From positions 30,403-78,938 of the forward strand of contig PCXC01000007.1 in assembly GCA_002796345.1 (NCBI GenBank): a DNA stretch of 48,536 bases, given 5' to 3'. The position numbers and the translations under genes were made by a program. This DNA comes from Deltaproteobacteria bacterium CG11_big_fil_rev_8_21_14_0_20_42_23 (GTDB taxonomy: Bacteria > UBA10199 > 2-02-FULL-44-16). This document shows, one piece after another, positions 5,358 to 31,364 of the stretch. Numbering within the stretch: position 1 is the stretch's first letter; every line of letters begins with the position of its first letter. A model generated the notes under the pieces. It was not told the origin of the DNA and made no database searches. It saw nothing but the letters and a program-made list of their open reading frames with translations.

Positions 5358-5369
5358 CGTTTTAGGGGG

Positions 5370-6530
5370 TTACTTCGATTCCCAAATGGGATGCTTTAAG
5401 TGCCACACACCATCTCTTTTTTCCCAAAGATGATTTGAGCGCCAACTATCTATAACTTCATAAAATTTGTCTTGAGTAATGGCACAATACTCCAAAAAAT
5501 CGTTCAAGTATTTATTTGGGAACTCTCCATCGTATTTTTTTATAAGGGCAATACCTTCTTCACGTGTAATCTTACCATCTCTGATTTCATGCGCTGCATC
5601 AGATGTTGTTCTGCCAATGCCAAATTTTATGTAAGCAAGATAATAATGGTATCCATCGATGCAGTCATCAAGACTCGCGTACTTGGAATAAGTCCCCTCA
5701 GAACGTTCTGTATTTGGTATAAAACCCGTATTTTCTGTGCAATAATAAAAATTTTCTTGAGGATCCCAGAACTTATAATATCCAAAAAAGTGAATTTGAG
5801 TATTATTGTGCATAATTTCTTCATATGCTGGAGCCATAAATGGCTTTAAATCAGCCATTGATATTCCGTGTTCTGTCCAAAATTCTGGCGGCAAACCAGA
5901 AAAATAATGTTTATCGTGATCTTGAATATCTCGATCAGGACGGAATGCGTTCTTGGCATCTCCGCCATACTCAACTTCTCCATTTTCTCCATACATAATT
6001 AATGGCACCTTGTATTTAACTGCCATATGTAATGGAAAATTTGTTTGACCATAAATAAAAGGTTGAAAGGGATCTCCTAAGTAATTGAAGGCTAAATGAG
6101 TTAATTGGCGTGTAACCTTACCATTCGGCGTGCCAAGCACATTGTCAAAACCTGAAGCGATGAAAGCATCCAAATTTCGACGTCCGATATCAGTAGCCTT
6201 GAGCGGAGCCCAGGTCACCGTGAGTGGATTCATCCCATATTTGTATTTCAGTTGGTGGGCAACAAAACTTCCATCTTTTCCACCACTACATGGAACAATT
6301 ACATCATACTCGCCGTTATTTTTTCTGTGCTTATCACATAATTCAAGAAGTTCAGCTTCGCGCTCTTTCCAATCAACCTTTTTCCGTTTGTATTCGGCAA
6401 AATTACATGCAGAACATACACCTTGTTCATCAAAAGTAATACGCGGCCGTTGATTTGAAATAGTGCATTTTTTACAAAATCTAACATTGGGAGGTAAATT
6501 ATACTGTTCAACTACATTTCTTTTTTCCAT
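5370..6530 (-). CDS. pseA: N-acetyl sugar amidotransferase (WbpG/PseA family)
   Basis: ATP-dependent amidotransferase of the PP-loop (ATP pyrophosphatase) superfamily that converts an N-acetyl into an N-acetimidoyl (acetamidino) group. Two CxxC pairs at Cys19/22 and Cys39/42 look like the family's zinc site, and the PP-loop CSGGKDGS is at 81-88; 386 aa is the usual length. ATG start at 6530 with an AAGGA site a few bases upstream. It is followed directly by the HisF-like and HisH-like genes that provide ammonia. Because it sits inside the legionaminate block, the likely product is a 5-acetamidino legionaminic acid as in Legionella and Campylobacter. That assignment is inference. Confidence 0.9.
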   Translation of the reverse strand: MEKRNVVEQYNLPPNVRFCKKCTISNQRPRITFDEQGVCSACNFAEYKRKKVDWKEREAELLELCDKHRKNNGEYDVIVPCSGGKDGSFVAHQLKYKYGMNPLTVTWAPLKATDIGRRNLDAFIASGFDNVLGTPNGKVTRQLTHLAFNYLGDPFQPFIYGQTNFPLHMAVKYKVPLIMYGENGEVEYGGDAKNAFRPDRDIQDHDKHYFSGLPPEFWTEHGISMADLKPFMAPAYEEIMHNNTQIHFFGYYKFWDPQENFYYCTENTGFIPNTERSEGTYSKYASLDDCIDGYHYYLAYIKFGIGRTTSDAAHEIRDGKITREEGIALIKKYDGEFPNKYLNDFLEYCAITQDKFYEVIDSWRSNHLWEKRDGVWHLKHPIWESK

Positions 6531-6559
6531 TTTTTAAATCCTTATCATAGTTTTATTTT

Positions 6560-7639
6560 TTAACATTCATTCTCAAGAGGGAGTCTTTGTTGAGCCAAAG
6601 CCAAATCATCAACTCGCCCCACATCTAACCAAGGTTCGTGCATTGGATAAACTATGGTTCGTAGTTTTTGTTCGTGTAAGCGGGTAAAGAGTGTTGGCAT
6701 ATCGCAGTATTCATTTGCTTTCAACAACTCAAAAACGCTCGGTTCCAAGACATAAATTCCCGCATTAACATGAGTTCGAGCAATAGGCTTTTCTTCAAAG
6801 CCAACAATGTCTACTCCATTGGTAGCCACTACTCCAAAAGGATGTTTCCATTCGTGGATACGAACAGCCATTGTGGCCATAGCTTTATGGCGCGAATGAA
6901 AATCAAGCAGTTCACTGTAGCGAATATCTGCCAAAACATCTCCATTTGAGACCAAAATTGGTAGTTCGGGAATTTCCTTCATCAAACTAATAGCACCTGC
7001 AGTGCCCAAAGGGGAATCCTCTCGCAAATAGTCAATTTGCACATCCCAGCGACTGCCGTCACAAAAATAGTCTTCTATCATATGGCCAAGATAATGCGTC
7101 GCCAACACAAAGTGTTTAAACCCTTCTCTCTTGGCCCTCTCTATAATATGTTCAAGCATTGGTTTCCCGTTTATAGGTAACAATGGCTTGGGACAATTTT
7201 CCGTATGAGGACGTAAGCGAGTTCCTTTTCCTCCCGCCATAATAACCATGAGATTAGGCAGTGATCCAGAGATAATAAGTTCATCCCACAAATGCAGGCC
7301 AATAACACACCTGTTTTCATCAACTATAGGAAGCTGGTGAATTTTATTGGCTCTCATCAACTGTAAAACTGTATCACGACCTAATTGGGGATGTACCACA
7401 AAGGGATCTCGATAAATAATTGTCTCAATTGAACTGTTTAAACTTAAACCATTCAATAATCCACGACGAATATCTCCATCGGTGATAGTCCCAAGCAAAT
7501 TTCCCTCTGGATTTACAACCAATGAAATTTGTAAAGATGACTCTTCTAAATTTCGAATAGTTTGCTGTAAAGTTGCATGTGCTGGAATTAAAGTTTTTTG
7601 CCAATGTTCTGTTGCGTTTACTTTTTTAACATCTGCCAT
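6560..7639 (-). CDS. ptmE: PtmE-like glucosamine-1-phosphate guanylyltransferase (CBS + nucleotidyltransferase)
   Basis: Makes the NDP-sugar that starts legionaminate synthesis; in Campylobacter PtmE forms GDP-glucosamine. Two CBS motifs fill residues 1-125 (GTITDGDIRRGLL at 50-62). The nucleotidyltransferase domain begins with MAGGKGTRLRP at 134-144 and keeps PKPLLP and SNGDVL. This CBS plus sugar nucleotidyltransferase layout and the 359-aa length match PtmE. It lies downstream of legG and upstream of the amidotransferase genes. The ribosome site is weak. GDP rather than UDP as carrier is taken from the family, not from the sequence. Confidence 0.9.
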   Translation of the reverse strand: MADVKKVNATEHWQKTLIPAHATLQQTIRNLEESSLQISLVVNPEGNLLGTITDGDIRRGLLNGLSLNSSIETIIYRDPFVVHPQLGRDTVLQLMRANKIHQLPIVDENRCVIGLHLWDELIISGSLPNLMVIMAGGKGTRLRPHTENCPKPLLPINGKPMLEHIIERAKREGFKHFVLATHYLGHMIEDYFCDGSRWDVQIDYLREDSPLGTAGAISLMKEIPELPILVSNGDVLADIRYSELLDFHSRHKAMATMAVRIHEWKHPFGVVATNGVDIVGFEEKPIARTHVNAGIYVLEPSVFELLKANEYCDMPTLFTRLHEQKLRTIVYPMHEPWLDVGRVDDLALAQQRLPLENEC

Positions 7640-7766
7640 AGCTTTTCTACACTTTCATTTGGAGCTGTTATTTGATTTTGGTAATTATGTTTAGCTCCTT
7701 CGGTTACTTTTTTATTCCTACATAACGACAATCAAGCTCCAGCATTTTCCTATAACTCTTAGCTTG
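7640..7766. other. Intergenic gap between legG and ptmE with coding-like debris
   Basis: At 127 bp this is the longest gap in the locus. On the minus strand, the legG stop TAG (7767-7769) is followed in frame by 20 sense codons before a TAA (7704-7706). A second frame, shifted by one, then stays open for 37 codons and ends in TAA at 7618-7620, just inside the ptmE start, reading ...NESVEKLWQMLKK. No start codon with a ribosome site leads either frame. It may be the worn remnant of a gene tail, or chance. I see no convincing promoter or terminator. Confidence 0.4.
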
Positions 7767-8936
7767 CTAACACGACTGCAGGTTATAAAAAGATTTTTTC
7801 AGTAATGATTCAAGTGGATAATTCCGAATCACTTTCAAAATTTTTTCACTCGCTCCACCTTGACCATAGGGATTTTGAACCCCATCCAAATTGAGTTGAA
7901 AGTCAGATGAGTAAAGTTTATGTGCAGCATTTAATATTGATTGTCTCTCTGGAATACAATCAATCACACTCTCAGCTTTAAGCCTCCCCTTCTGCCGATC
8001 ACCAATATTGATGGTTCCTTTTTTAAAACTTGGCATCTCGGCCAAACCACTTGAAGAATTTCCCACTACTCCATCAACGTGGTACATGCAGGAAAGATAG
8101 CGCAACTGACCCAAAGAAGTATAGGCTCGAGCATTGGCATGTGTTGCAACAAAATTTTCAATTTTATTAAAGATAACTTTATTTCCTGTGTCTGCGTTTG
8201 GCATTGAAAAAATGAGATGGGTATCTTCTAATATATCCAAGGCTGCAAGCAGTTCAGTCACTTGCTGTGCAGATGTCTCAACTTCTAAAGTAGCAGGATG
8301 GAAAGTGACCAGGAGATTTTTTGGTCCTAATTTAAAGTTTAGCGCCTCTTCTAGTGATGAGCGATCAAGTAATTTTATTTTATGAATACTATCAATTCCT
8401 AATCCACCAACAAGAAAAACTCGATCAGGTTGTTCGCCCAACTGAATCACTCGTTGACGATATTCTTCCGCAGCCACAAAATGCAGATGCGACATTTTCG
8501 TAATGGAATGTCGAAACGCTTCGTCAATGGCGCCTTCAGTGTTTTCTCCTCCGTGCAAATGCGCAACAGGAACTCTTGCCACCATGGCAGCAGTAACTGC
8601 AGAAAAAATTTCAAAGCGATCGCCCAACACCAAAAGCAAATCTGGCTGCAGCTTCTGCAAAGCTTCTCCAAAACCAATCATCCCTAAACCCATCGATTTA
8701 GCAATACCAGCCGGCGTATCTGAGTTTAGCGAAATATTGACCTTTTCATCAATAGTAAAACCATCTTGCTCAATCTCGCAGTAAGTTAAACCAAATTCTG
8801 GGGAGAGATGCATTCCTGTTGCAACAACTTGAAGGTGAAGATCTGGTGTTCTACGAATATCTTCCATTAGCCAGCGCAATAATCCATACTCAGCGCGAGT
8901 ACCAGTAACAACACAAATTTTACGGCGTGTCATCAT
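7767..8936 (-). CDS. legG: NDP-N,N'-diacetylbacillosamine hydrolysing 2-epimerase (LegG/NeuC family)
   Basis: Removes the nucleotide and epimerises C2 to give 2,4-diacetamido-2,4,6-trideoxymannose, the aldolase substrate for legionaminic acid. It has the GT-B-like epimerase fold with TGTRAEYGLL near residues 12-21, LVLGDRFE, HLHGGE and GNSSSGLAE motifs typical of NeuC/LegG; 389 aa is normal. Tandem ATG at 8936/8933, the first overlapping the legI stop as ATGA. It is a different family from PseG, so it should not be taken as the missing hydrolase of the pseudaminate pathway. Confidence 0.92.
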   Translation of the reverse strand: MMTRRKICVVTGTRAEYGLLRWLMEDIRRTPDLHLQVVATGMHLSPEFGLTYCEIEQDGFTIDEKVNISLNSDTPAGIAKSMGLGMIGFGEALQKLQPDLLLVLGDRFEIFSAVTAAMVARVPVAHLHGGENTEGAIDEAFRHSITKMSHLHFVAAEEYRQRVIQLGEQPDRVFLVGGLGIDSIHKIKLLDRSSLEEALNFKLGPKNLLVTFHPATLEVETSAQQVTELLAALDILEDTHLIFSMPNADTGNKVIFNKIENFVATHANARAYTSLGQLRYLSCMYHVDGVVGNSSSGLAEMPSFKKGTINIGDRQKGRLKAESVIDCIPERQSILNAAHKLYSSDFQLNLDGVQNPYGQGGASEKILKVIRNYPLESLLKKSFYNLQSC

Positions 8937-9934
8937 AGGCTAATCAACTCATCTGGCGCAAAGTCACGTTGTGCCTTACAGCCAATAACTTCATCCCAGC
9001 GCATCGGAGATATGCCTGTCCCTGGACGCTTCACCGCAAGCTTCTCTTCACAGAAGAGATCACCTGCACGAATGACGCACGCTGCAACAAGTGATTTTCT
9101 TGCAATATCTCTATTTTTAATTTCACTTGGACTTGGGCGTTTAACGCCATCACCCAAAGCCTTTTCGATATTGCGAATTGCAGCAACCATTGCCTTGAGT
9201 TCGTTAGGTTCCAAGCTTGCTTTGTGGTCGGGGCCAGGCAAGTTGCGATCAAGTGTAAAATGTTTTTCAATTGTCGTAGCACCTAAGGCTACTGCTGCAA
9301 TTGCCACTTCAATTCCTAAAGTATGGTCAGAGTACCCAACAGCTACGCCAAAAGTTTCTCGCAAAGTTTTTATAGCACGCAAGTTAACATCCTCCATGGG
9401 AGTAGGATATTCAGTATTACAATGAAGAAGAGTAATTTGATTTCGCATAGTACCCGCCTGCTCCAAAACTTTGAACGCAGCACCAATTTCTTCAAGAGTT
9501 GCCATCCCCGTTGAGAGAATAACGGGTTTACCGAATCGACCAATATGGCGAAGATAAGGCAAGTTAGTAATTTCACCGGAAGGAATTTTGAAGAAAGTCG
9601 AACCAAGCTCCGCTAGCAAATTAATACTTTCAATATCGAAACCTGTCGAAGAAAATTGAATACCACGTGCCTTGCAATGGGAAATCAGTTCCTGATGCAT
9701 ATCAGCCGTCAACTCAAGTTTACGAAGCATCTCATATTGCGATTCTTGCGCATCAGTAGTTTTAGTTTGATAATCAGCCTTCTTTGCACATGCTGTCACA
9801 AGGCAGTCAGCCTTAAAGGTCTGGAATTTGACAAAGTCGGCACCCGCTTCAGCTGCAACGTCAATTAATTTGCGCGCAAGAGCTAAATCTCCATTATGAT
9901 TTACCCCCGCTTCCGCTATAATAACCGTTTTCAT
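8933..9934 (-). CDS. legI: N,N'-diacetyllegionaminic acid synthase (NeuB family)
   Basis: Condenses phosphoenolpyruvate with the 6-deoxy-mannosamine derivative to form the nine-carbon acid. The TIM-barrel start IAEAGVNHNGD (residues 6-16), KFQTF, EKHFTLDRNLPGPDHKASLEP and a C-terminal SAF domain with VKRPGTGISP are diagnostic of NeuB-family synthases. 333 aa is the usual length. It is clearly related to the second synthase at 17914-18960. It overlaps legG and legH by 4 bp each. Legionaminate rather than neuraminate specificity is inferred from the LegB/LegC/PtmE context. Confidence 0.92.
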   Translation of the reverse strand: MKTVIIAEAGVNHNGDLALARKLIDVAAEAGADFVKFQTFKADCLVTACAKKADYQTKTTDAQESQYEMLRKLELTADMHQELISHCKARGIQFSSTGFDIESINLLAELGSTFFKIPSGEITNLPYLRHIGRFGKPVILSTGMATLEEIGAAFKVLEQAGTMRNQITLLHCNTEYPTPMEDVNLRAIKTLRETFGVAVGYSDHTLGIEVAIAAVALGATTIEKHFTLDRNLPGPDHKASLEPNELKAMVAAIRNIEKALGDGVKRPSPSEIKNRDIARKSLVAACVIRAGDLFCEEKLAVKRPGTGISPMRWDEVIGCKAQRDFAPDELISL

Positions 9935-10563
9935 AACGTTTTCCTAAAGGCCGGCAAAGAAGTATTTGGTTCGCAATTTACAAGCACGGATTGCCCCATG
10001 CCAATCACGCAATACGCACCAATTTTCAGCGATTGTCGCACACAAGCGCCACTTCCAATAAAAGTTCCATCACCAACATGTACATCTCCATTTATTTTAG
10101 ATCCTGTTGAAATATGACAATGATTGCCAATTTTTACATCATGTTCAACCAAGGCCTGGTTGTTAATGATACAATTATCTCCTATTATTGCACCTGCATT
10201 CACCACAGCACCATGCATCACAATTGTACCTGCCCCTAATGTTGCATGAGGAGAAACATAAGCATGAGGTGATATTACAATCGGCATTTTAAAATTATTT
10301 TGTTCAAGTAATTGAAAAAGGTGAACGCGCAACTCTGGACTTTTGATCTGACCAACTGTCACTAAAGCGTGCTGATATTTTCCCAGCAAATCTTTTACAT
10401 TTTTATCAGTACATAATACGGGATACCCTAATACACGACTGCCAACTTCTTGTTCTGAACCAAGCAAACCTGCTATTGAAAAGAGATTTGTTTGTTCAAT
10501 AACATCAATGCAAGATTTAGCATGGCCTCCAGCTCCTAAAAGTAAAATTGAAACTTTGCTCAT
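9931..10563 (-). CDS. legH: NeuD/PglD-like sugar N-acetyltransferase
   Basis: Transfers acetyl from acetyl-CoA to the 4-amino group of the NDP-amino sugar made by LegC. An N-terminal Rossmann-like domain (LLLGAGGHAKS, residues 7-17) is followed by a left-handed beta-helix of hexapeptide repeats from about residue 100. NNQALVEHDVKIG contains the His that acts as base in PglD-type enzymes. 210 aa is normal. Its position between legC and legI, with 4-bp overlaps on both sides, fits the pathway order. Confidence 0.9.
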   Translation of the reverse strand: MSKVSILLLGAGGHAKSCIDVIEQTNLFSIAGLLGSEQEVGSRVLGYPVLCTDKNVKDLLGKYQHALVTVGQIKSPELRVHLFQLLEQNNFKMPIVISPHAYVSPHATLGAGTIVMHGAVVNAGAIIGDNCIINNQALVEHDVKIGNHCHISTGSKINGDVHVGDGTFIGSGACVRQSLKIGAYCVIGMGQSVLVNCEPNTSLPAFRKTL

Positions 10564-11750
10564 GTTTTTGGCTCCGTGACTAGATGTGCGCTGCTTGGTA
10601 AATTGATCAAGCGATTTGCCAATGATTCAGCTACAGGCAATTCCATTTTTGGGCATTCCCGATAGGGCGTTAAATGGTGCATTAAATTCCACACTGGGCG
10701 CGTCATAATTTTTTCATCATTTGTGGACGTTAAGATAGCATCGCGCTGCGCTGCAACAGATTTGTCAAGTAACATTGTCTGCAACCAATAATTACTACAA
10801 CAACCAGCTGGTTCAGAAAATATTTTTAACTGAGGTATACCAGCAAATGCAGCTTGGTAGCGCTGAAAGAGCTGACGTTTCGCAGCTAATAAATCAGGTA
10901 GCTGTTCCAGCTGTGCACAACCAAGGGCAGCATTGATGTTTGGCATTCGATAATTATAACCCACTTCATCATGAATAAAATCCCAACGGTGCAATAACTT
11001 AGCTGTTGTAGTAAGATGTTTCGCACGACGGGCTAATGCTGAATCATTCGTGAGGATAGCTCCACCACCACCAGTTGTAATTGTTTTATTCCCATTAAAA
11101 CTCAACGTTCCCATCAAACCAAAGGTCCCGGTGTGACGTCCGCAAACAGTACTCCCCAGCGATTCCGCTGCATCTTCTACTACAGTCAAATAAAAATCTC
11201 TAGCCACCGCTAAAATTCCTTCAATATCTACTGGATGACCAAAGGTGTGCATAGGAACTAGTGCGCGAATGACGCAACCAGTCCTACAGTTGACACATTG
11301 TTTTCCACGAAGCTCTGTATTCTTTCTAAGGTATTCGCGCAAAACATAAGGATCCACACCCAAAGTACGCTCATTACTTTCCACAAAATGCGGAGTCCCT
11401 CCGCTGTACACAACGGCATTAGCAGTGGCAACAAAAGTTAATGTGGGAATGAGCACTTCATCACCAGATTGTACACCTGCTAGCCGAAGAGCCACGTGCA
11501 AAGCGGCTGTGCCATTCATCACCGCAACTGCATGTTTAGCTCCAGTATAATGAGAAAGATCTGCTTCAAACCGATCAACAAATTCACCAACAGAAGAAAC
11601 AAAAGTAGAATCCAAACACTGCTTGATATAAATCCATTCGTTTCCAGAAAATTTCGGTTCATGCAAAACCACAGGCTTTAAACCAACTACTGCCTGAATA
11701 GCATCAACTGTCCGACGAACAAGAGAAGATTGTGAAGAAGTATCGTTCAT
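10560..11750 (-). CDS. legC: PLP-dependent NDP-4-keto-sugar aminotransferase (LegC-like)
   Basis: DegT/DnrJ/EryC1-family aminotransferase that puts the 4-amino group on the 4-keto-6-deoxy sugar made by LegB. The PLP lysine is in SFNGNKTITTGGGGA, and the PLP-ring Asp is in VVEDAAESLGS. 396 aa matches LegC, which is longer than PseC. ATG start at 11750 overlaps the legB stop as ATGA. It is one of four such aminotransferases in the window; the GGGG after the lysine sets it apart from the tandem pair at 31365-33584, which has GDGG. Confidence 0.9.
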   Translation of the reverse strand: MNDTSSQSSLVRRTVDAIQAVVGLKPVVLHEPKFSGNEWIYIKQCLDSTFVSSVGEFVDRFEADLSHYTGAKHAVAVMNGTAALHVALRLAGVQSGDEVLIPTLTFVATANAVVYSGGTPHFVESNERTLGVDPYVLREYLRKNTELRGKQCVNCRTGCVIRALVPMHTFGHPVDIEGILAVARDFYLTVVEDAAESLGSTVCGRHTGTFGLMGTLSFNGNKTITTGGGGAILTNDSALARRAKHLTTTAKLLHRWDFIHDEVGYNYRMPNINAALGCAQLEQLPDLLAAKRQLFQRYQAAFAGIPQLKIFSEPAGCCSNYWLQTMLLDKSVAAQRDAILTSTNDEKIMTRPVWNLMHHLTPYRECPKMELPVAESLANRLINLPSSAHLVTEPKT

Positions 11751-12745
11751 AAATTATAAATTTCCGGCTTATACATTGAAAGGCAAGTTGGGTTTCTAAA
11801 CCAATCAGCTGTTTCTTTTAATCCTCTGCGAAAACCATCCGCTCCTGCATATTGGGGCTTCCAGTCAAGCAAATGATGAGCCTTCTCATTACTTGCCCAC
11901 AATCGCTCCACTTCACTTTTTTCAGGACGCAAACGAATTTCATCTGTAACAATTTCGATTTCGGTTTCCATAACTTCCGCAATAGCACGCGCTGTATCAC
12001 CAATTGAAATTTCAAAATTACTTCCAAGATTTATCACTTCTCCGATAGCACGTTCCGAACGAAGTGCCGCAATGAAACCTGCTACTGTATCGGTTACGTA
12101 ATTAAAATCACGAGTTGGGCTTACAGCTCCAAGTTTAATTTTTTTTGCACCATTTGCAATTTGAGTGATAATGGTGGGAATCACAGCTCGTGCAGATTGC
12201 CGCGGACCATAAGTATTAAATGGGCGAACAATACTTACCGGAGTTTCAAAGGAAGTATAAAATGACATCGCAATTTGATCTGCGCCAATTTTACTTGCGG
12301 AATATGGTGATTGACCTTGTAAAGGATGGTCTTCAGTAATGGGAACAAATTGTGCGGTGCCATACACTTCACTTGTAGAAGTATGAATAACTTTAGCCAC
12401 GTCTAAATCACGAGCTGCTTGCACAATATTCAAAGTGCCTTTTACATTTGTATCTATGTACGTATCAGGCGAATGATATGAATACGGAATAGCAATCAGA
12501 GCTGCCAAGTGCAGCACGGCTTCACAGCCTTTCATCGCTGAACGAACACCGTATGCATCACGGATGTCTCCGGAAAATATTTCAAATTTTCCTTTTACCT
12601 GTTCGCTACAATGATCCAACCAGCCCCAGGAATTGAAAGAGTTGTAAAGCACGAAAGCACGCACATCATATCCAGCACGCACCAGAGCTTCAACAAGATG
12701 AGAACCAATAAAACCATCAGCACCAGTAACTAGAATTTGTTTCAA
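11747..12745 (-). CDS. legB: NDP-GlcNAc 4,6-dehydratase (LegB-like SDR)
   Basis: Extended short-chain dehydrogenase that starts legionaminate synthesis by making the 4-keto-6-deoxy sugar. NAD-binding GADGFIGSHL lies at residues 8-17. The catalytic set is Thr/Ser in TSTSEVYGT and Tyr-Lys in YSASK. The RPFNTYGPRQSARAVIPT motif is typical of retaining dehydratases of this type. TTG start at 12745 overlapping the upstream stop as TTGA, with an excellent GGAGG site 7 bp before it. 332 aa is normal. Confidence 0.9.
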   Translation of the reverse strand: MKQILVTGADGFIGSHLVEALVRAGYDVRAFVLYNSFNSWGWLDHCSEQVKGKFEIFSGDIRDAYGVRSAMKGCEAVLHLAALIAIPYSYHSPDTYIDTNVKGTLNIVQAARDLDVAKVIHTSTSEVYGTAQFVPITEDHPLQGQSPYSASKIGADQIAMSFYTSFETPVSIVRPFNTYGPRQSARAVIPTIITQIANGAKKIKLGAVSPTRDFNYVTDTVAGFIAALRSERAIGEVINLGSNFEISIGDTARAIAEVMETEIEIVTDEIRLRPEKSEVERLWASNEKAHHLLDWKPQYAGADGFRRGLKETADWFRNPTCLSMYKPEIYNL

Positions 12746-14619
12746 GAATTTTCCTCCAAAATTGAATTAATATGAGTATGAATGCGTTCCCGCACCCTTC
12801 CATCTCCCAAATCACCAAAAACAACATTCTGCAAATGTTTATACTCCGACATTGTAACAGTATCCCCACTGAGAATTGACTTTGTCCGTTCTAAAAGCTC
12901 TTCGTAATTAAAACACATTACACGTGTCGGCTTATAGTCAAAAGCATCCGCCACCAAGCCTTGAGTATTATGACTATACTCATGAAATAAAACGGGAATA
13001 CCCACAGACAGGCACTCATCACCTAATGAAGTGTGCTTGGCAAGTACCAAATCGGAATGAGCACAAAGATCATAGCTAAAAAAGTTTTTTTCATAATCCA
13101 TCGAAATTTCCATATTTTTGGAAGACATAATTTCCTGAACAACTTCGGCAAACACAGGCAGAGAAACCCAATCGATCATCTTATAGCGAAGAACAATAAA
13201 AACATTAGAAATATCTTTAGAGAGCTGAATCAAATTTTCAAGAAAATGTCGATGTGCTTTCCAGTTGAGTAAAGGATCAGCTTGTGACGTATGCCAATCC
13301 ATGTGAGTGTGAAAACCCAACGCTGTGATAATCTTGCAGCCTTGTGCAAGAGGTGCTCTCAAAATCTGTGGCGGAGAACATTCTTTTGCTTTAATAAGAT
13401 TATCAGACTTATATTGCCCAACCGAAAGACAATCCTTTACGTGATATGATGAAGATTTTTTTATTTTCTCAGCCATATACTCGCTTCCACAAAGATAGGT
13501 GTCAAGAATGGAACCAAGTGATTTATAAAAACCTGCCATAAAACGTTCTTGCACTGCCACCGTTTTAATTTTTTTAGCTTCGAAGGCGAGAAGCAAAGAT
13601 TTTGGACACAGAATTTCATAATCAATCAGTGCCAATTTTAAACTAGAATAAACTTCCAGCTTTTTTGAATATGCCTTAAAAACAGCATAAAATCGAGACA
13701 ACAACAACAAACCGATAAGCTGCGAAAAGCTTCGAACAGAAACAATACCTCGACTTATTGCAAACAAAACATGAGGAAAGCCTGTTTGAAATAATTGGCG
13801 TTCGCTCCCTAAACAAACCCACTTTGTCTTTTCAGATGGCGATGGAAAGTTACTATAATCAAAATGAAGCAAATTATCCGAATGCAACTCTGAATCAATT
13901 TCATCTGAATAAAAAAGAGTCTTTTGGAAGAGATTTCCATAATCAACCCCTTTGTGAGTTACAAAAACTACTCGCGAAGATGAGGTGTTAGATAAATCTG
14001 CACTTGATATTGTTATGTCAGTTTTTGAATCATTTTTATGTTTAAAGAATTGTAAACATCTTCGAAAAAAACCAACTGTCCTACTCACACTTTTAAAAAG
14101 TGGATTCATCGGAATTGTAAATAATGTAACATTCGATGCCAAACCAAACGTCAGCAATCCTTTGACATCAAAGTTAATCAACACATGCTTTCGAGCAGGA
14201 TATGCATCAGCCCAACAATTAACCCTATCTATTAAGGATGCCTGTCCCGAAATTATCGACTGAACCACCATGAAAAGCTTGCTGACAATATCGGTGTTCT
14301 TTGGATAAAGATTTTTAAATGTATTCAAAAGTTTAGGGGAAACAAATTGATTTGTCTTCTTTTGGAGTTTGTTTTGGGCATCAATAATGCACCTAAGAAT
14401 TTCTTTCATGTGAGAAAGTGATTCTAAGGGTAAAGGTACAATTCCCACCTTACGTAATCTATCAACTCTCAGCGCTTCAAGTTCGGGGCCTTGTCCACTT
14501 CCAGATAAACTGATGTAGAAAACATTGCAGCCAAACTTTTTGAGCAGCCTCGCTATGAAATCGGAAAAAGGAGGTAACGAAGCAAAAATAATATCCGATT
14601 TTTTTTCTACAGTTTTCAT
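12742..14619 (-). CDS. Large putative surface-glycan glycosyltransferase (unknown family)
   Basis: 625-aa protein that I cannot place in a named family. Hydrophobic stretches near the middle (ISRGIVSVRSFSQLIGLLLL) could be buried strands and helices rather than membrane spans, and there is no signal peptide. The C-terminal third has VLAKHTSLGDECLSVG followed by IPVLFHEY, the pattern of the donor-binding site in CDP-glycerol/polysialyl-type GT-B transferases. It lies exactly between the pseudaminate and legionaminate gene blocks, so it may be a nonulosonate transferase. ATG start at 14619, stop overlapping legB. The function is inferred from layout and context only. Confidence 0.5.
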   Translation of the reverse strand: MKTVEKKSDIIFASLPPFSDFIARLLKKFGCNVFYISLSGSGQGPELEALRVDRLRKVGIVPLPLESLSHMKEILRCIIDAQNKLQKKTNQFVSPKLLNTFKNLYPKNTDIVSKLFMVVQSIISGQASLIDRVNCWADAYPARKHVLINFDVKGLLTFGLASNVTLFTIPMNPLFKSVSRTVGFFRRCLQFFKHKNDSKTDITISSADLSNTSSSRVVFVTHKGVDYGNLFQKTLFYSDEIDSELHSDNLLHFDYSNFPSPSEKTKWVCLGSERQLFQTGFPHVLFAISRGIVSVRSFSQLIGLLLLSRFYAVFKAYSKKLEVYSSLKLALIDYEILCPKSLLLAFEAKKIKTVAVQERFMAGFYKSLGSILDTYLCGSEYMAEKIKKSSSYHVKDCLSVGQYKSDNLIKAKECSPPQILRAPLAQGCKIITALGFHTHMDWHTSQADPLLNWKAHRHFLENLIQLSKDISNVFIVLRYKMIDWVSLPVFAEVVQEIMSSKNMEISMDYEKNFFSYDLCAHSDLVLAKHTSLGDECLSVGIPVLFHEYSHNTQGLVADAFDYKPTRVMCFNYEELLERTKSILSGDTVTMSEYKHLQNVVFGDLGDGRVRERIHTHINSILEENS

Positions 14620-15559: not shown

Positions 15560-16255
15560 TTAAAGAAGCTTTCTTCCAAGAATGAAAGCTTCTGCAGCTT
15601 CCACACCCACTGTAGCTCCACGCCATTTGGCCAAAGCATCTATTGCCACCAGTGATCTTGGATGCGGGAATGCTCGCAATTCATTTTCATAGGCCTTCAT
15701 GGCCGCAATTTTAATTTTTAAGGTGGCTGAAATATCCACAAAAAAGTTTGGTAAAAAAGGTGTTGCTGAACCTGGCGGGCTCCATTCTGTCGAAGACGGC
15801 ACTTCAAAAAAAAGAAGTTCTTGTACTGAGCATTCAGGTTGTGGTCGACAAGCAGCAAGCACCGCCTCATGAACAATACGATGATCAATATTCACATCAC
15901 CAGCATGGTGAGTAAAAACTGTTGAAGGTTGATACCTCTCAATGAAATTTTCAATTTGCTTAACTACGTCTAACAACTCTAAACCATCAAGGCGATTATC
16001 TGGTAGGTTTAAATGATCCACTGATGCACAACCCATAATCTTGCAAGCAGCTTGAGCTGCTGCATTACGCAGAACAATCAGGCTCTCGCCAAGAAATTGT
16101 TCTTTCGCCGCGACTCTCGATCCTTCTCCATCCGCCATCAAAAGCACATGCACTGAGCGACCTTCATTTGCAAAGCGAGCAATAGTTCCACCGCAACCAA
16201 GCACTTCGTCATCCGGATGAGCTGCAACAATAAGAATGCTCTTTTGATTTTTCAT
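15560..16255 (-). CDS. PIG-L/LmbE-family N-deacetylase
   Basis: Zinc-dependent deacetylase of the PIG-L family (231 aa). The metal motif AAHPDDEVLGCGGT is at residues 11-24, and the third ligand motif is HHAGDVNIDHR near residue 115-125. These enzymes remove N-acetyl groups from GlcNAc-type sugars. It sits among pseudaminate genes next to a phosphatase-family and an SDR gene, so it may deacetylate a precursor before a different acyl group is added. ATG start at 16255 with an AGAGG site 9 bp upstream. Confidence 0.9.
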   Translation of the reverse strand: MKNQKSILIVAAHPDDEVLGCGGTIARFANEGRSVHVLLMADGEGSRVAAKEQFLGESLIVLRNAAAQAACKIMGCASVDHLNLPDNRLDGLELLDVVKQIENFIERYQPSTVFTHHAGDVNIDHRIVHEAVLAACRPQPECSVQELLFFEVPSSTEWSPPGSATPFLPNFFVDISATLKIKIAAMKAYENELRAFPHPRSLVAIDALAKWRGATVGVEAAEAFILGRKLL

Positions 16256-16275
16256 TTCTTTTAACCTCTCATAAA

Positions 16276-17043
16276 CTACATATAGCTTGTAAGCATTGTT
16301 TGAATTTCTCGAAGTAATGTCGGTGATGAAGCAACCACCAGTCCATTTTTTTCAAATCCACCCTGATATTCAAAACTTTCCCCTGTAAACTGAGTGAGCA
16401 CGCCACCAGCTTCTTGCAACACAAGGTGTGGTGCTGCAACATCCCAATCTCTCAAAGGCACATCCTTGACAAAAATATCAGCACTTCCTTCAGCAACGAG
16501 ACATATTTTCAATCCGATGCTGCCACTTTCAACATAATTCACACAGTTTAAATCATGAAATAAGCGCTTTGTGATACCATTAGGTTGAGGATAATTATCA
16601 ATCAGTGTCATTTCCCGAGAATTGAATAATTTAACGGATATCGGTCTTCCATTAACAGTTGCTCCATTGCCTTGTTCTGCAACATAGAGTCGTTCAAGTG
16701 CCGGAGCATAAACCGATGCCAAGCAGGGTTTCCCACCCTTAATCCATGCAGCTTGACAAACAAACCCATCAAAACCTTGAGCAAAGCTGGCCGTACCATC
16801 TATAGGATCGATCAGCCAATACTGAGACGGCCGGTCATGAGATTGAGATGAGATATCTTCTTCGCTAACAATGGGCATATTCGAGATTTTTGACAGTTCT
16901 TTCCTCAGATATTCATCAGCAATCAAATCAGCTGCTGCTTTAAACTGTGTCCCCTCCCACTTGCCATCTATAAGTCCCTGCTTGCGGCACTCTAGAATTT
17001 TGGTTCCTACCCTTTGCATAGCCAGGCCCAGCCTATCTTTCAC
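16276..17043 (-). CDS. Inositol-monophosphatase-family phosphatase (CysQ-like)
   Basis: Mg2+-dependent sugar-phosphate or 3'-phosphonucleotide phosphatase, about 255 aa. The family metal sites are complete: VSEEDIS, WLIDPIDGTASF and DWDVAAPHLVLQEAGG. I start it at GTG 17043 because a strong AGGAGG site lies 5 bp upstream; the longer frame to 17100 has no such signal. It therefore overlaps the end of the preceding SDR gene by 11 bp. In this locus it may dephosphorylate a sugar phosphate or remove PAP, but the substrate cannot be read from the sequence. Confidence 0.85.
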   Translation of the reverse strand: MKDRLGLAMQRVGTKILECRKQGLIDGKWEGTQFKAAADLIADEYLRKELSKISNMPIVSEEDISSQSHDRPSQYWLIDPIDGTASFAQGFDGFVCQAAWIKGGKPCLASVYAPALERLYVAEQGNGATVNGRPISVKLFNSREMTLIDNYPQPNGITKRLFHDLNCVNYVESGSIGLKICLVAEGSADIFVKDVPLRDWDVAAPHLVLQEAGGVLTQFTGESFEYQGGFEKNGLVVASSPTLLREIQTMLTSYM

Positions 17044-17938
17044 CTGAACCTCCTGAAGATTGAAAACCAAATTCACGACGAACAACACCAACAAACTCAA
17101 GCAATCGTTGCTGAAAACTAATATCGATTAAACCATAGCAAGCTTTAAGTCGCTTCAAGCACATTGAAAAGTTTTTTACTTTTATTAAGGGAGGCTTCCA
17201 ATCAATATCGCAGTAAGCGGCAATTTGTTTCACTGCGGAAAAGATATCAAATTCACTGTTATATCCCACATTTATAACCTGAGCAGAAGAAGAGTTAGTA
17301 TTTGTAAGAGTGGCCCTTAGAAAATATTCCGCAGCATCTTCTACAGCCATTGCAGCCCAAAGTTCAGTGGGAGTAAGAAGTTCAAATGTTTCATGTGTAA
17401 CAAACGACCTAGTAGCATTGTACAATAGTCCTGAGCGTCTAGGCAAACCAAACAAACCTGGAAGACGTAGAACTACATCACCAGGGAAACGTCTATTCAA
17501 AAGAATTTGCTCAGCAAACCATTTTCCCTTTGCATATCCAGAATGAGGAAGGCAAGCATCTTCTTCACGAACCGGAAAATTTGTAACTGCATCATAAACG
17601 GTCATCGATGACGCCAATATAATTCGACAACGAGCATACTCTGCGATATTTTTCACCATTGAGATACTCGCCTCAGCCGTTTGTTCATCATTGTAATGAG
17701 AAGGAAATTTTGGAACCTTTGCTGCGCAATGAATAATGATAGAAGGTTTAATCTGATCCATCAGCCTACAAACGGCTCTACGATCGGTGAGGTCACACGC
17801 TTTACCAAACTTTCCGCTAAAACTTGTAGGAATATATGGAACCCCGTGTTTTCGCAGTTTTTCCAACACATGGCTACCTAGATAGCCTGAAGCTCCTGTC
17901 ACTAAAACATTTTCTAAATCATGTCCCATGTAATCCAT
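17033..17938 (-). CDS. NAD-dependent epimerase/dehydratase (SDR)
   Basis: Extended SDR, 301 aa. NAD-binding GASGYLGSHVLEKL starts near residue 15, and the catalytic set looks intact: SSMTVYD and Tyr-x3-Lys in SGYAKGKW. The short substrate domain and the lack of clear dehydratase motifs suggest a reductase or epimerase. The start is ATG 17938 with GAAGAGGA just upstream, which makes it overlap the pseI end by 25 bp. It is not part of the standard PseB-C-H-G-I-F route, so it is a candidate tailoring enzyme for the pseudaminate branch. Confidence 0.82.
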   Translation of the reverse strand: MDYMGHDLENVLVTGASGYLGSHVLEKLRKHGVPYIPTSFSGKFGKACDLTDRRAVCRLMDQIKPSIIIHCAAKVPKFPSHYNDEQTAEASISMVKNIAEYARCRIILASSMTVYDAVTNFPVREEDACLPHSGYAKGKWFAEQILLNRRFPGDVVLRLPGLFGLPRRSGLLYNATRSFVTHETFELLTPTELWAAMAVEDAAEYFLRATLTNTNSSSAQVINVGYNSEFDIFSAVKQIAAYCDIDWKPPLIKVKNFSMCLKRLKACYGLIDISFQQRLLEFVGVVRREFGFQSSGGSGER

Positions 17939-18960
17939 TGATCCTCTTCAATATCTGAACAAGCTCTTCGTCCCACTACCGTATCCAGAAGATAAGGCTG
18001 TATTCCCAAACCAGGACGTTTAACCATAATCATTTCTGATGTAATAACTTCACCTTTGGGAATACGATATTTAGCATGAAGGCTTCGTCTCCCCTTTTCA
18101 AACATTTCCATTTCTTCTAAACGCGGTCCAGTTTTTGCTCCATCTCCCATTGCAGCTTCAATCTCTCTCAATCGTTGCATCATTTGCTTAAATGATTTTG
18201 GCTCCATAGCAAATGAGTGGTCAGGGCCTGGTAAATTTTTGTCTAAGGTAAAGTGTTTTTCGATTACGCAGGCACCCAATGCAACAGCAGCAAGACACAC
18301 ATGATCACCTTCCGTATGATCAGAATAACCTGTAAGCACACCAAAAGTATCACGCATAACTCCAATAGCATTCAAATTACTCAAGTTTGCCGGCGCTGGA
18401 TAAAGGGAAGTACACTGTAACAAAATAATTTTCTCGTTGCCAACTTCTCGACATGAGTCAACAGCACGTTGTATATCCATCCAGTCGGCAAGACCTGTAG
18501 AGAGAATAATGGGACGGCCTCTTTTTGCCATATCACGAACAAGTCCCAGATCGTTGAGATCGAAAGAGGCAACTTTGAATGCATGCATTCCAAGTTCATA
18601 GAGTTCATTAATCGCTTCGGCATCGCAAGGAGAGGATAAGAAGACAAGATTACGGCTTTCGGAATACTCCTTGAGTGGGGCATGCCAACTTCGATTCAAC
18701 TCGAGAGTTTTTATCAGTTCAAATGTATTGCAATGATTCAAATATGAAAATCCTGGGGTATGTTTTGAATAATGTGTTTGAGCGCGAAAAGTCTGGAATT
18801 TTACAGCGTCAGCTCCAGCATCAGCAGCAGCATCGATCATTTGCTTCGCCAAATCAAAATCATGATTATGGTTTGAGCCAATTTCCGCAATGACAAAACA
18901 GGGATGCTTGTCGCCAATCCATTTCCCCGGTGCTATTTCACAATTAAGAGGCTGTCTCAT
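17914..18960 (-). CDS. pseI: Pseudaminic acid synthase (NeuB family)
   Basis: Condenses phosphoenolpyruvate with 2,4-diacetamido-2,4,6-trideoxy-L-altrose to give pseudaminic acid. It has VIAEIGSNHNHDFDLAKQMI at about residues 23-42, KFQTF, EKHFTLDKNLPGPDHSFAMEP and a C-terminal SAF domain with VKRPGLGIQP. The SNHN start, FAMEP and 348-aa length favour PseI over LegI, matching the PseB/PseC/PseF neighbours. ATG start overlapping the ATP-grasp stop as ATGA. Confidence 0.9.
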   Translation of the reverse strand: MRQPLNCEIAPGKWIGDKHPCFVIAEIGSNHNHDFDLAKQMIDAAADAGADAVKFQTFRAQTHYSKHTPGFSYLNHCNTFELIKTLELNRSWHAPLKEYSESRNLVFLSSPCDAEAINELYELGMHAFKVASFDLNDLGLVRDMAKRGRPIILSTGLADWMDIQRAVDSCREVGNEKIILLQCTSLYPAPANLSNLNAIGVMRDTFGVLTGYSDHTEGDHVCLAAVALGACVIEKHFTLDKNLPGPDHSFAMEPKSFKQMMQRLREIEAAMGDGAKTGPRLEEMEMFEKGRRSLHAKYRIPKGEVITSEMIMVKRPGLGIQPYLLDTVVGRRACSDIEEDQWITWDMI

Positions 18961-19907
18961 TTTAACTCCTCAATAAATTCATTGTGCCAAGATCTTCTCA
19001 ATCCGAAACCATTACGAAAGGGCAATAAATCATTCTCTTTATAATTTTTATTCTTTTTGTTCCCAAGATAGACATCGATAAAATCCACACCAGCAGCCAA
19101 CGCCAAACATGAAGTTGTTGAGATACGTGGATTGATTTCAAACGGTTTTACATCACCGTTCTTAGTTTTTATAAGTTGAATATTGTAACAACCGAAAACA
19201 GGATTGGCTGTATGAATCGCCACGCACGCAGATATTACTTTTTCATCATGATCTGTCATCGCTCGTATGGTGATCCCTTTTTTGATCTCAACTTTAACAG
19301 GCACTACCGCACGCAGCTGTCCATCTCGATCTGCTGCTATCATAACGGTGTATTCCTGCCCCTGAAGCAACTCTTGAACAATAAAATCTTCTGGCTGACG
19401 ACGCGAGATAATCACATGCGCCTGCAACTCCTCTTTGGAATGAACAATGGCAACTCCACGTGAACCGCGTCCCTGCCGTGGTTTAGCAATACATGGGAAT
19501 AAAACATTTTGATGTTCAAACAATAGTTCAGTCTTTGGAACTGGTAATTTATATTTTTGTAATAAAGAGTTCGAGGTGAGTTTATCTAGATGTGTTTTGA
19601 TAAACGCCATCGATGGTAACATGACTTCGCATTGCATATCATCACGTGCATGCGCAATCGCGACCAATTCTTCATCAACACCGGGGATCAGGAGGTCCAC
19701 ATCAAGTTTACAACACAGCTTGCACACTTCATCCACAAATGAAGGATCAGAAGCAAAAGGAATTTTGTGCCAAGAACTAAGAGGAATGAAATGAGGTTTA
19801 GCATTATAGTCCGCATCAGCAAAGTGAACCTTATAACGCCCGCTCAACAATCGCAATAGCGCCTCAGCACCTGCTCCGCCACCACCTGTAAAAAGCAATT
19901 TTTTCAT
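18957..19907 (-). CDS. ATP-grasp ligase (carbamoyl-phosphate-synthetase-like)
   Basis: 316-aa ATP-grasp enzyme that should join a carboxylate to an amine or similar nucleophile using ATP. The N-terminal pre-ATP-grasp domain starts LLFTGGGGAGAEALLRLL. The ATP-grasp core has FPCIAKPRQGRGSRGV (ATP-binding Lys and Gly-rich loop near 140-155), FIVQELLQGQEYTV, and the metal-binding FEINPRISTT near the C-terminus. It lies between the DUF218-PseH gene and pseI, and is not part of the standard pathway. A plausible job is adding an amino acid or other acyl group to an amino sugar of the pseudaminate branch; this is inference. AAGGAA ribosome site upstream of ATG 19907. Confidence 0.85.
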   Translation of the reverse strand: MKKLLFTGGGGAGAEALLRLLSGRYKVHFADADYNAKPHFIPLSSWHKIPFASDPSFVDEVCKLCCKLDVDLLIPGVDEELVAIAHARDDMQCEVMLPSMAFIKTHLDKLTSNSLLQKYKLPVPKTELLFEHQNVLFPCIAKPRQGRGSRGVAIVHSKEELQAHVIISRRQPEDFIVQELLQGQEYTVMIAADRDGQLRAVVPVKVEIKKGITIRAMTDHDEKVISACVAIHTANPVFGCYNIQLIKTKNGDVKPFEINPRISTTSCLALAAGVDFIDVYLGNKKNKNYKENDLLPFRNGFGLRRSWHNEFIEELK

Positions 19908-19936: not shown

Positions 19937-21055
19937 TCAAAAAACACCCCGATAGATCATCACTGCCCGCCCCTTGTCATACTCTGCTTCAAAACCCAAA
20001 GATTCGAAAATTCTTCGTGATGAAAGATTACCGAGTTTTACCTGTCCAAATATTCTAACCCCAGGAATTTCGGTGCAAAGTTTCTTAATAGCTGTTTCTA
20101 ACAAGAGACGTCCCAAGCCACGGCCACGATATAGAGGAGTAAGGCTATAATCGACTTCCCAATTCTCTTCTTTACAGTCAAATCGCACCTGTCCAATTGC
20201 AATGGCATCTGGTGTTTCGATAATATAGAGACGACATTCCTCGAGATGAGATAAAATAGCGTGAAACCATTTGTGGTGGGTTTCCTTTGAAATCTTCGCT
20301 GGTGAGAAAGCATTGCTCCGAGTGACAGGATCGTTTGCCCAGATTAAGAGCAACTCTTCATCTTTTGGGGTAACAAGTCTGGCACAAAAGGAGGTGTTTG
20401 TTGTTATCTCCAAATCTATATGCGTCAGTCTATTTCCATACTCATAAACACCTTTTCGAATCTGCTCGATACCCTGCTGCTCTCTAGCGATACGCCTTTT
20501 AAGATACTCACTACTGTATTCTTTTTTTATTTTCTTTTCCCATACTTGAGGAAAAGTTTTAATTAAGACATCTTCAGCAGCGACGAAGTCAAAAACATAC
20601 TGGCTATTAAAGTGTGCAAATTTATCTTCTATCATTAATTGAACACGAGGAAGTGAGTAGCGGTTAATAACAAAAGTAAGTTTAGTGACACCTAGTTCCT
20701 TTGTCATTCTCTCAACTTCTACGAGTTCCTGGTAGGTTGAACCTGAGACCCATTCTAGTTGGATGAGATTTAGAGGAACTCCTTCAGCTATGAGTTCATC
20801 GCGAAGAATTTCTGCAAGCAAGGGACGTTTATTCGAAGTACCTTCAGCAATATCTTTTCCCTTTCCCCCACCAGTTATGATGAAAGTATTGAGATTTTCC
20901 TTAACTAGGATTGCTGCAGCAAGGATTCGTAACTTTCCTCCAGGAGCACCAAGTTTATCGTCCTCTTCAGAAAGATCAGTGCTAACCCATTTCCCCGATT
21001 GATTTTGTTTGATGCCCGCTGCTAGCAAAATTATTGCATGGGAATATGTATTCAC
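19937..21055 (-). CDS. Fusion of DUF218 (YdcF/SanA-like) domain with PseH-like N-acetyltransferase
   Basis: 372-aa two-domain protein. Residues 1 to about 195 match the DUF218 pattern: an opening strand AIILLAAGI, an acidic/Gly stretch with GGKLRILAAAILVKE, FIITGGGKGKD, then EGVPLNLI, SGSTYQELVE and FVINRYSLPRVQLM. Residues from about 210 are a GNAT acetyltransferase: PKDEELLLIWAND, the acetyl-CoA loop RGRGLGRLLL, and NLSSRRIFESLGF, as in PseH, which acetylates the 4-amino group. GTG start at 21055 overlapping pseF as GTGA, with GAGGA upstream. There is no membrane anchor, unlike many DUF218 proteins. The first domain occupies the place of the missing PseG hydrolase in this operon. Confidence 0.82.
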   Translation of the reverse strand: MNTYSHAIILLAAGIKQNQSGKWVSTDLSEEDDKLGAPGGKLRILAAAILVKENLNTFIITGGGKGKDIAEGTSNKRPLLAEILRDELIAEGVPLNLIQLEWVSGSTYQELVEVERMTKELGVTKLTFVINRYSLPRVQLMIEDKFAHFNSQYVFDFVAAEDVLIKTFPQVWEKKIKKEYSSEYLKRRIAREQQGIEQIRKGVYEYGNRLTHIDLEITTNTSFCARLVTPKDEELLLIWANDPVTRSNAFSPAKISKETHHKWFHAILSHLEECRLYIIETPDAIAIGQVRFDCKEENWEVDYSLTPLYRGRGLGRLLLETAIKKLCTEIPGVRIFGQVKLGNLSSRRIFESLGFEAEYDKGRAVMIYRGVF

Positions 21056-21749
21056 TTTCTAGTATCCTCTGCCTGCAGTACCTTCCACATCATTTGCGCA
21101 CGATCCCAATCTTCCGGAGTATCTATATCTTGAACACGCCATCTCGGAAGAAGAACTGGAGTAGAATGAGGAGCAAAAATAGTTTTTTTTTCTCTCCACA
21201 CAGATGGTCGTCCCCAGTAAAACTGGCCTGCATCATGCAGTGCGATAGGCAAGTCCTGGGAGCGAGTTAAAAAATGTTCTGGGAAAACCATTTCAATGCT
21301 ACCCTCTTCATTTTTTTGGAATGAACGAAAAATAGGTGAAGAAAAATCTGTTGCAGTAAATGTATATGCCCACTCACCAGACTCTAGTATTTCCAAACCT
21401 CGCTTGAGATCGTCTACTTGTATAAAAGGTGCTGTGGGATAAATGCAACAAACTGCATTGAGGTTAAATTCTTGATCCAAAGCCCATTGCGTTGCATGGG
21501 CAACAACTTCAGCAGTTCCTATATGGTCATCGGAAAGTTCAGGTGGGCGAATGAACGGCACTTCCGCTCCGTATTTTTTTGCCACCTCAGCAATTTCGCT
21601 ACTATCAGTAGAAACAATAACATGATCAAACAAACTCGATTTTTTGGCAACCTCAATTGACCACGCAATTATTGGTTTACCGCAAAAATCTTTAATATTT
21701 TTGAAAGGGATACGTTTACTTCCACCTCTAGCTGGTATGACAGCAATTC

Positions 21750-21753
<4 letters not shown>
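21052..21753 (-). CDS. pseF: CMP-pseudaminic acid synthetase
   Basis: Cytidylyltransferase that activates pseudaminic acid. The CTP-binding start IPARGGSKRIPFKNIKDF is at residues 6-23, with VIVSTDSSEIAEVA and CCIYPTAPF; the KRIPFKN and YPTAPF variants are typical of PseF and differ from the LegF copy (KRLPGKN, PTSPLR) at 3255-3956. 233 aa is normal. It follows pseC with a 4-bp overlap. Confidence 0.9.
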
Positions 21754-25808
<4,055 letters not shown>

Positions 25809-30034: not shown

Positions 30035-31246
30035 TCACTCTAACCAATCCTGTTTTTCACGTAGAAATTGGGCACCATAACGAGCACAAATTTTTCCATG
30101 AAGCGGCCTGCACCCATCCTTAGCATCCACTGGAAAAATTTTCCAAAAACGCCGTTGCAAATCATCATCATTTTGTTCAGGTTTCCAGACACCTTTCAAG
30201 CGCTCTAGCATTTCAATCACAAGTGATTTAATTTCCTCGGGCGTGTTTTCAATGACCTCAATACCTTGAGCTTGATAGTCAGAAGTTGTTCCAAAAAAAC
30301 CAACTCCACGGCTAAATATTTCTTTGAAAGTAAGAAATCGCTGCTCTGATACTAATTTATATTTTTTACATATCCCCACAGTGTTTTTTAGAAAAGTTGC
30401 AAAATATCCAATAGGCACCATGTTTACATAGGCTATTGGTCTTCTAAACACCTGAGGGATTGCATCAAAACCAGTACCGACACTAATACAAAACAAGCAC
30501 TTTGCACCAAGGTAAACATCCATAAAATCATCCCGCATTCCATTGGTGGCATAATCAATTACTTTTGGATGACTCGAGTGAATAGGTTCTTTAACTACTG
30601 CGCCCATGCGAATCACATAGTAGCCAAGATTTGCAAGTGCTTCTGCCGCCAAAACATAATTCTGAACATCAACATCCCGATAATCGTGATAATCCCATTG
30701 ACCAGGAAGTTCTGTATTTAAATACGCACTATCCCTGGCAATCAAACAAATGAATTCAGCATCTGAAGGAATGCCCATTATTCGCAAACCTTCTTTCCCA
30801 CGAAGTTCTTCTTTCGCTGTAAAACTAAGATGTGGAGGAATGCGTTCGTACAGATTATATACATCCCGATCATAAGAAGTATTTTCTCCGATCTCGTGAA
30901 TTAATCCCCCCGGAAAAAAGCTGTTCAGTATAAAGACTGGCCTCAATAACCAAGATGGCCAAACCCTCAAACAGCGCCCCAACATAAGTGCCAACTGTTT
31001 GTTGGCTGGCTTATAGGCATGATAATACAAGTTTATATGACATTCTTTTGGGACATTAATTCCCGCATCACGCTCACAAAGATGTACTTCTGTGTTAAGC
31101 GCAATATGCCCAATTCTGGAACTGTACAATGGCATTATTCTGATAAGTAACCAGCGCCGAAAAAGACGCATGAAAAGAAAAAATGGTAAGGTCAGAGGCA
31201 AAACAAAAAGAAATTGAAGTATTTGGTATAATTTGCGCAACAACAT
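30035..31246 (-). CDS. TIGR04372-family putative glycosyltransferase
   Basis: About 403 aa. RIGHIALNTEVHL, the central FICLIARDSAYLN with the following YHDYRDVDVQNYVLAAEAL, and SVGTGFDAIPQVFRRP match proteins grouped as TIGR04372 putative glycosyltransferases of surface-glycan loci. A hydrophobic N-terminal stretch (LFVLPLTLPFFLFM) may associate with the membrane. I prefer ATG 31246, preceded by a purine-rich GGTGGACAG, over ATG 31312, which lacks any ribosome site; the choice is not certain. Donor and acceptor are unknown. Confidence 0.78.
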   Translation of the reverse strand: MLLRKLYQILQFLFVLPLTLPFFLFMRLFRRWLLIRIMPLYSSRIGHIALNTEVHLCERDAGINVPKECHINLYYHAYKPANKQLALMLGRCLRVWPSWLLRPVFILNSFFPGGLIHEIGENTSYDRDVYNLYERIPPHLSFTAKEELRGKEGLRIMGIPSDAEFICLIARDSAYLNTELPGQWDYHDYRDVDVQNYVLAAEALANLGYYVIRMGAVVKEPIHSSHPKVIDYATNGMRDDFMDVYLGAKCLFCISVGTGFDAIPQVFRRPIAYVNMVPIGYFATFLKNTVGICKKYKLVSEQRFLTFKEIFSRGVGFFGTTSDYQAQGIEVIENTPEEIKSLVIEMLERLKGVWKPEQNDDDLQRRFWKIFPVDAKDGCRPLHGKICARYGAQFLREKQDWLE

Positions 31247-31364
31247 TTTCTGTCCACCATGATAACTTTTTTTATATTGGTGCAATATCAATATAAAGTT
31301 CAAAAATTTCATAACTTAATGATCTCGTTAAGCATCATCCATTCAACGCTAAATCCATTACAAA

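Follow-up and report, generated by a model that had tools for sequence, protein, structure and literature searches.

In Campylobacter jejuni and Helicobacter pylori, the PseG step of pseudaminic acid synthesis comes after the PseH step. Caulobacter depends on its PseG gene, flmD, for flagellin modification and motility, and a laboratory flmD deletion of Caulobacter crescentus is non-motile and carries unmodified flagellins (PMC7591256). The pathway has also been reconstituted in vitro (PMC7910423). Here we analyze a stretch of 48,536 nucleotides (the window) from Deltaproteobacteria bacterium CG11_big_fil_rev_8_21_14_0_20_42_23 (contig PCXC01000007.1, positions 30,403 to 78,938), which carries a pseudaminate-type operon whose PseH-type acetyltransferase domain is fused to a DUF218 domain. 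The operon runs in the order PseB, PseC, PseF, the DUF218-PseH fusion, an ATP-grasp protein, a NeuB-type synthase, a short-chain dehydrogenase/reductase (SDR), an IMPase-family phosphatase, and a PIG-L protein (Table 1). With a probability of roughly 45%, we propose that the fusion is a bifunctional enzyme of pseudaminate type in which PseG was displaced by the unrelated DUF218 domain, a non-orthologous replacement.

A Pfam search assigned residues 38-150 of the fusion protein to DUF218 (PF02698, E 5.8e-9, 36.4 bits against a gathering cut-off of 27.6) and residues 226-356 to the GNAT family (PF13302, E 3.2e-13). In the predicted structure, strand 1 of the DUF218 domain begins with the protein's first residues, and there is no membrane anchor. 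The gene start and the stop of PseF share the letters GTGA, the base composition of the fusion is similar to that of the neighboring operon genes, and the fusion is a single open reading frame. These features argue against a chimeric assembly as the source of the fusion, a reading we reject. The operon genes are intact, and since their neighbors mostly overlap by 4 bases, as at the GTGA overlap, PseB through PIG-L look like one transcription unit. A first-pass annotation of the window, made from its letters, had recognized PseB, PseC, PseF, and an unanchored N-terminal DUF218 domain; the former all score above their NCBIfam cut-offs, and the latter holds with a Pfam match above threshold and an N-terminus that belongs to the domain itself.

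The host genome is a draft of 2.03 Mb in 81 contigs with an estimated completeness of 99.99%. The PseG family model (TIGR03590) has no match anywhere in this genome, while elsewhere in the phylum it matches 17 genomes, 9 of them above cut-off, and it also matches control genomes including that of Caulobacter. With E values up to 10, no match in the host genome was obtained with the real PseG protein of the closest operon or with a profile of 16 PseG sequences, and in the same run this profile found PseG in the positive controls G008, G031, and G039. The absence of PseG that the first-pass annotation saw in the window, with a pseG gene elsewhere as the foreseen objection, was therefore upheld for the genome by family model, protein, and profile. 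PseB is found above cut-off in nine genomes of the phylum, six of which also have PseG above cut-off. The other three are the window genome, G045, whose contig ends at 8.9 kb, and G032, which has no PseC beside PseB; G032 was considered as a second pse operon without PseG and rejected, because its PseB occurs without PseC in the stretches read.

Similarity to the PseH half was used in a genome-wide search to gather 60 PseH loci across bacteria and archaea. The scan patterns were steered by one added row that served for pattern choice only, confirmed matches rest on tblastn against the window protein, and one locus, L105, belongs to G008, a genome that contributed to the query. PseG lies within the fetched stretch at 57 of the 60 loci, is part of one protein with PseH at 38, and is present at every one of the 37 loci that also show PseB and PseC. 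The three loci without it are L091 and L094, which are short or truncated contigs, and L133, which has no PseB.

The PseH half itself scores 28 bits with the PseH equivalog model TIGR03585, below the cut-off of 93, and the PseH parts of bona fide PseG-PseH fusions likewise give no match to this model at E 1e-10. It is 44-49% identical to PseH domains that pse operons encode as part of PseG-PseH fusions, and in a tree of PseH domains it groups with L084, L087, and L085 in one well-supported clade (100/98), L085 being closest (96/86); L086 is outside this tree, as its sequence lacks the motif used to excise the domain. Identity and clade together bear out the PseH-like domain of the first-pass annotation despite the low model score. 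Four close relatives found, with at least 44% identity over most of the domain, are L084, L085, L086, and L087, of which L084, L086, and L087 are PseG-PseH fusions. Such fusion relatives come from Methanoregula UBA247 (L084), a myxobacterium, and a Rhizobium. The Methanoregula locus is the closest operon, with identities to the window of 49% for the PseH half, 78% for PseB, 61% for PseC, 62% for PseF, and 67% for PIG-L, and the PseG half of its fusion scores 301 bits with TIGR03590. Most close relatives of this PseH half thus carry PseG where the window protein carries DUF218, and the simplest reading of these relatives is that DUF218 was swapped in for PseG. As a positional and genomic argument, the hypothesis of a substitution is well supported.

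The fourth close relative is L085:8475-10187, from the single-cell genome Pelagibacteraceae AG-912-M06, where the partner of PseH in the fusion is an ATP-grasp domain and PseG is a separate protein encoded about 5 kb downstream. Some other clusters likewise keep PseG and PseH in separate places, and this pattern favors an alternative in which the pathway is incomplete or makes another product: pseG would lie in missing sequence, or would have been lost while the operon decays or serves a different sugar, with DUF218 otherwise employed. The draft state of the genome, the atypical NeuB, and the derivation of the evidence from one genome fit this alternative as well. It is improbable given the high estimated completeness and the intact, mostly overlapping operon genes of similar base composition, and a gap would need to hide exactly PseG while DUF218 holds PseG's usual place.

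We examined the DUF218 domain by aligning it with 18 DUF218 proteins. In this 19-sequence alignment, R43, G92, T107, R137, and E183 are invariant. A putative Thr-His-Glu triad has been proposed for SanA from the mutants T125A, H149A, and E182A (PMC12176290), and by alignment it would map to T107, residue 134, and E183 of the window domain. T107 and E183 are kept, and the putative triad is incomplete, with Ser134 in place of the His. Escherichia coli YdcF also lacks the triad His, so the triad is not defining for the DUF218 family as a whole. The predicted structure (predicted local distance difference test score 82) matches models of viral DUF218/YdcF proteins and E. coli YdcF (3ca8) with a probability of 1.00 and modest template-modeling scores, and no PseG is among the listed Protein Data Bank fold matches. 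The hidden Markov model comparison proposed in the first-pass annotation came out for DUF218, since the N-terminal half passes the Pfam threshold and has no match to TIGR03590, and a comparison of PseG and DUF218 profiles gave a probability of 12%. A diverged PseG was thus rejected on the YdcF-like fold, the listed fold matches, and the profile comparison. As modeled, the domain has a fold of nucleotide type in which some active-site residues are altered, and it is not a hidden PseG.

In the proposed enzyme, the C-terminal PseH half would acetylate the product of PseC, and the N-terminal DUF218 domain would bind the resulting UDP-2,4-diacetamido sugar and remove UDP. We assume that the bond cut by DUF218 would be C1-O, as in PseG, and the free sugar would then be received by the NeuB-type synthase. 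This synthase is not the PseI that the first-pass annotation had named: it scores higher with the NnaB model (360 bits) than with the PseI model (303 bits, cut-off 340), and is below cut-off with both, whereas the PseI of the closest operon is canonical at 489 bits. Since the NeuB is not a canonical PseI, the final nonulosonate may be other than plain pseudaminic acid.

The atypical NeuB belongs to a recurring module (15560-19907) that also contains the ATP-grasp protein, the SDR, the phosphatase, and PIG-L, and that is found in L089, L102, L106, L119, and L131; the window NeuB is 62% identical to that of L131. All five of these loci have PseG, and the NeuB module gives no account of why PseG was lost. 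The IMPase-family phosphatase lies beside PseG in L106 and L131, while L089, L102, and L119 have another putative phosphatase gene in its stead, as judged by N-terminal sequence only. The phosphatase was rejected as a marker of PseG loss because it co-occurs with PseG. Its presence in the same operon would suit a two-step route: DUF218 would cleave the pyrophosphate bond, yielding UMP and sugar-1-phosphate, and the phosphatase would then remove the phosphate. We find this route improbable, as L106 and L131 have this phosphatase next to PseG, so that it has another role there.

A legionaminate-type second nonulosonate gene set lies at 3255-12745 on the minus strand of the window, with LegF-like, HisH-/HisF-like, PseA/WbpG-like amidotransferase, PtmE-like, NeuC/LegG, LegI, NeuD, LegC, and LegB genes. 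The NeuC-type hydrolyzing epimerase of this complete set (7767-8936; TIGR03568, 485 bits), or an unrecognized protein, might supply the hydrolase step, in which case DUF218 would be an accessory or regulatory nucleotide-binding domain. The missing triad His and an operon NeuB closer to NnaB than to PseI speak for such a division of labor. NeuC/LegG enzymes invert C2, however, which would yield a different sugar, and the window copy is part of a separate group of Leg genes. PseG is also present in all five further loci that share this NeuB module, and the DUF218-PseH fusion would be left unexplained. Supply of the step by another enzyme is accordingly rather unlikely.

Replacement of PseG by DUF218 in the fusion, which the first-pass annotation had raised as a possibility, is thus favored by the absence of PseG and by the fact that in the closest operon, and in three of the four close relatives found, PseG is the fusion partner in this position. 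The missing SanA-type His, the want of a second example, and the other routes left by the NeuC/LegG-type enzyme and the phosphatase leave this reading partly supported. Several points weigh against it. The proposed substitution rests on one genome, and no second DUF218-PseH fusion was found in 46 genomes of the phylum. Ser134 of the window domain stands against a His in all 18 other aligned DUF218 proteins, and our literature search returned no enzymatic activity reported for DUF218 proteins. Because the closest PseH, that of L085, has an ATP-grasp partner and a separate PseG, it is possible that PseG loss and DUF218 gain were unconnected, for example from an L085-like ancestor.

Further searches for a second fusion were negative in 395 genomes from the phylum to which L131 belongs, in phages, plasmids, and viral contigs, and in 50 genomes with PseH loci, the last without a positive control and of little weight. 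Relatives of the DUF218 half were sought in 84,980 species and none was found, which is weak evidence since the patterns were steered by artificial rows, insensitive, and without a positive control. In the survey of pse operons suggested by the first-pass annotation, nearly all PseH loci had PseG nearby, and no second fusion, and with it no pattern, emerged. The literature search likewise returned no role for DUF218 or YdcF in the synthesis of pseudaminic acid or other nonulosonates, in agreement with the earlier statement that none was described.

Proteins with DUF218 occur widely and influence the bacterial envelope, and here a fusion to a known enzyme, in a pathway that lacks the enzyme of the following step, points to one specific substrate and reaction. 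The broader claim, that DUF218 domains can be nucleotide-sugar hydrolases and that one of them displaced PseG in a fusion enzyme, is put forward tentatively. If true, it would be the first reaction assigned to the DUF218 family and a clue to the function of SanA, ElyC, and YdcF. It would also mean that the PseG step is replaceable, a warning for annotation that lack of PseG need not make a pathway incomplete.

Table 1. Operon genes and fusion domains in the window.
Feature	Position	Strand	Evidence
PseB, inverting UDP-GlcNAc 4,6-dehydratase	22901..23902	minus	TIGR03589 554 bits, above cut-off
PseC aminotransferase	21750..22904	minus	TIGR03588 539 bits, above cut-off
PseF, CMP-pseudaminate cytidylyltransferase	21052..21753	minus	TIGR03584 319 bits, above cut-off; stop overlaps fusion start
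DUF218-PseH fusion	19937-21055	minus	372 aa, GTG start, single open reading frame
DUF218 (YdcF-like) domain, fusion residues 1-210, no membrane anchor	20426..21055	minus	Pfam, alignment, predicted structure
PseH-type GNAT acetyltransferase domain, fusion residues 211-372	19937..20425	minus	Pfam, homology, tree
ATP-grasp protein	18957..19907	minus	Module common to L131, L106, L089, L102, L119
Atypical NeuB-type nonulosonate synthase	17914..18960	minus	NnaB and PseI models, both below cut-off
SDR (epimerase/dehydratase family) of NeuB module	17033..17938	minus	Pfam and locus comparison
IMPase-family phosphatase of NeuB module	16276..17100	minus	PF00459 E 3.4e-39
PIG-L family deacetylase	15560..16255	minus	PF02585 E 2.2e-32; 67% identical to L084 copy

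Elsewhere in the window, three sizeable proteins of the glycan region (12742-14619, 30035-31312, and 2086-3258, all on the minus strand) have no Pfam match at E 0.01. Among the relatives, a 703-aa fusion of a CMP-sugar cytidylyltransferase with a class-III aminotransferase adjoins PseG-PseH at L060:6926-9037 (G008), and L085, L086, and L118 have similarly beginning proteins of 675-677 aa.

Compared with the known DUF218 proteins of E. coli, YdcF, SanA, and ElyC, the window domain shares R43, T107, R137, and E183 and a YdcF-like fold, and it is cytosolic like YdcF. It is unlike them in being fused to an acetyltransferase within a sugar operon, and while SanA and ElyC are membrane-anchored, it has no anchor and carries Ser134 where the SanA type has His. 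PseG, a UDP-sugar hydrolase of solved structure (3hbm/3hbn), acts at the pathway step that is proposed for the window DUF218 but belongs to a different family. The PseG-PseH fusion of Methanoregula sp. UBA247 (L084, 519 aa) resembles the window protein in its PseH half, in the N-terminal position of the partner domain, and in an operon with PseB, PseC, PseF, and PIG-L, but there the partner is PseG and the synthase a canonical PseI, whereas in the window they are DUF218 and an atypical NeuB. The PseH-ATP-grasp fusion of L085 is like the window protein in having a changed PseH partner, and differs in that the partner is ATP-grasp and a separate PseG is present.
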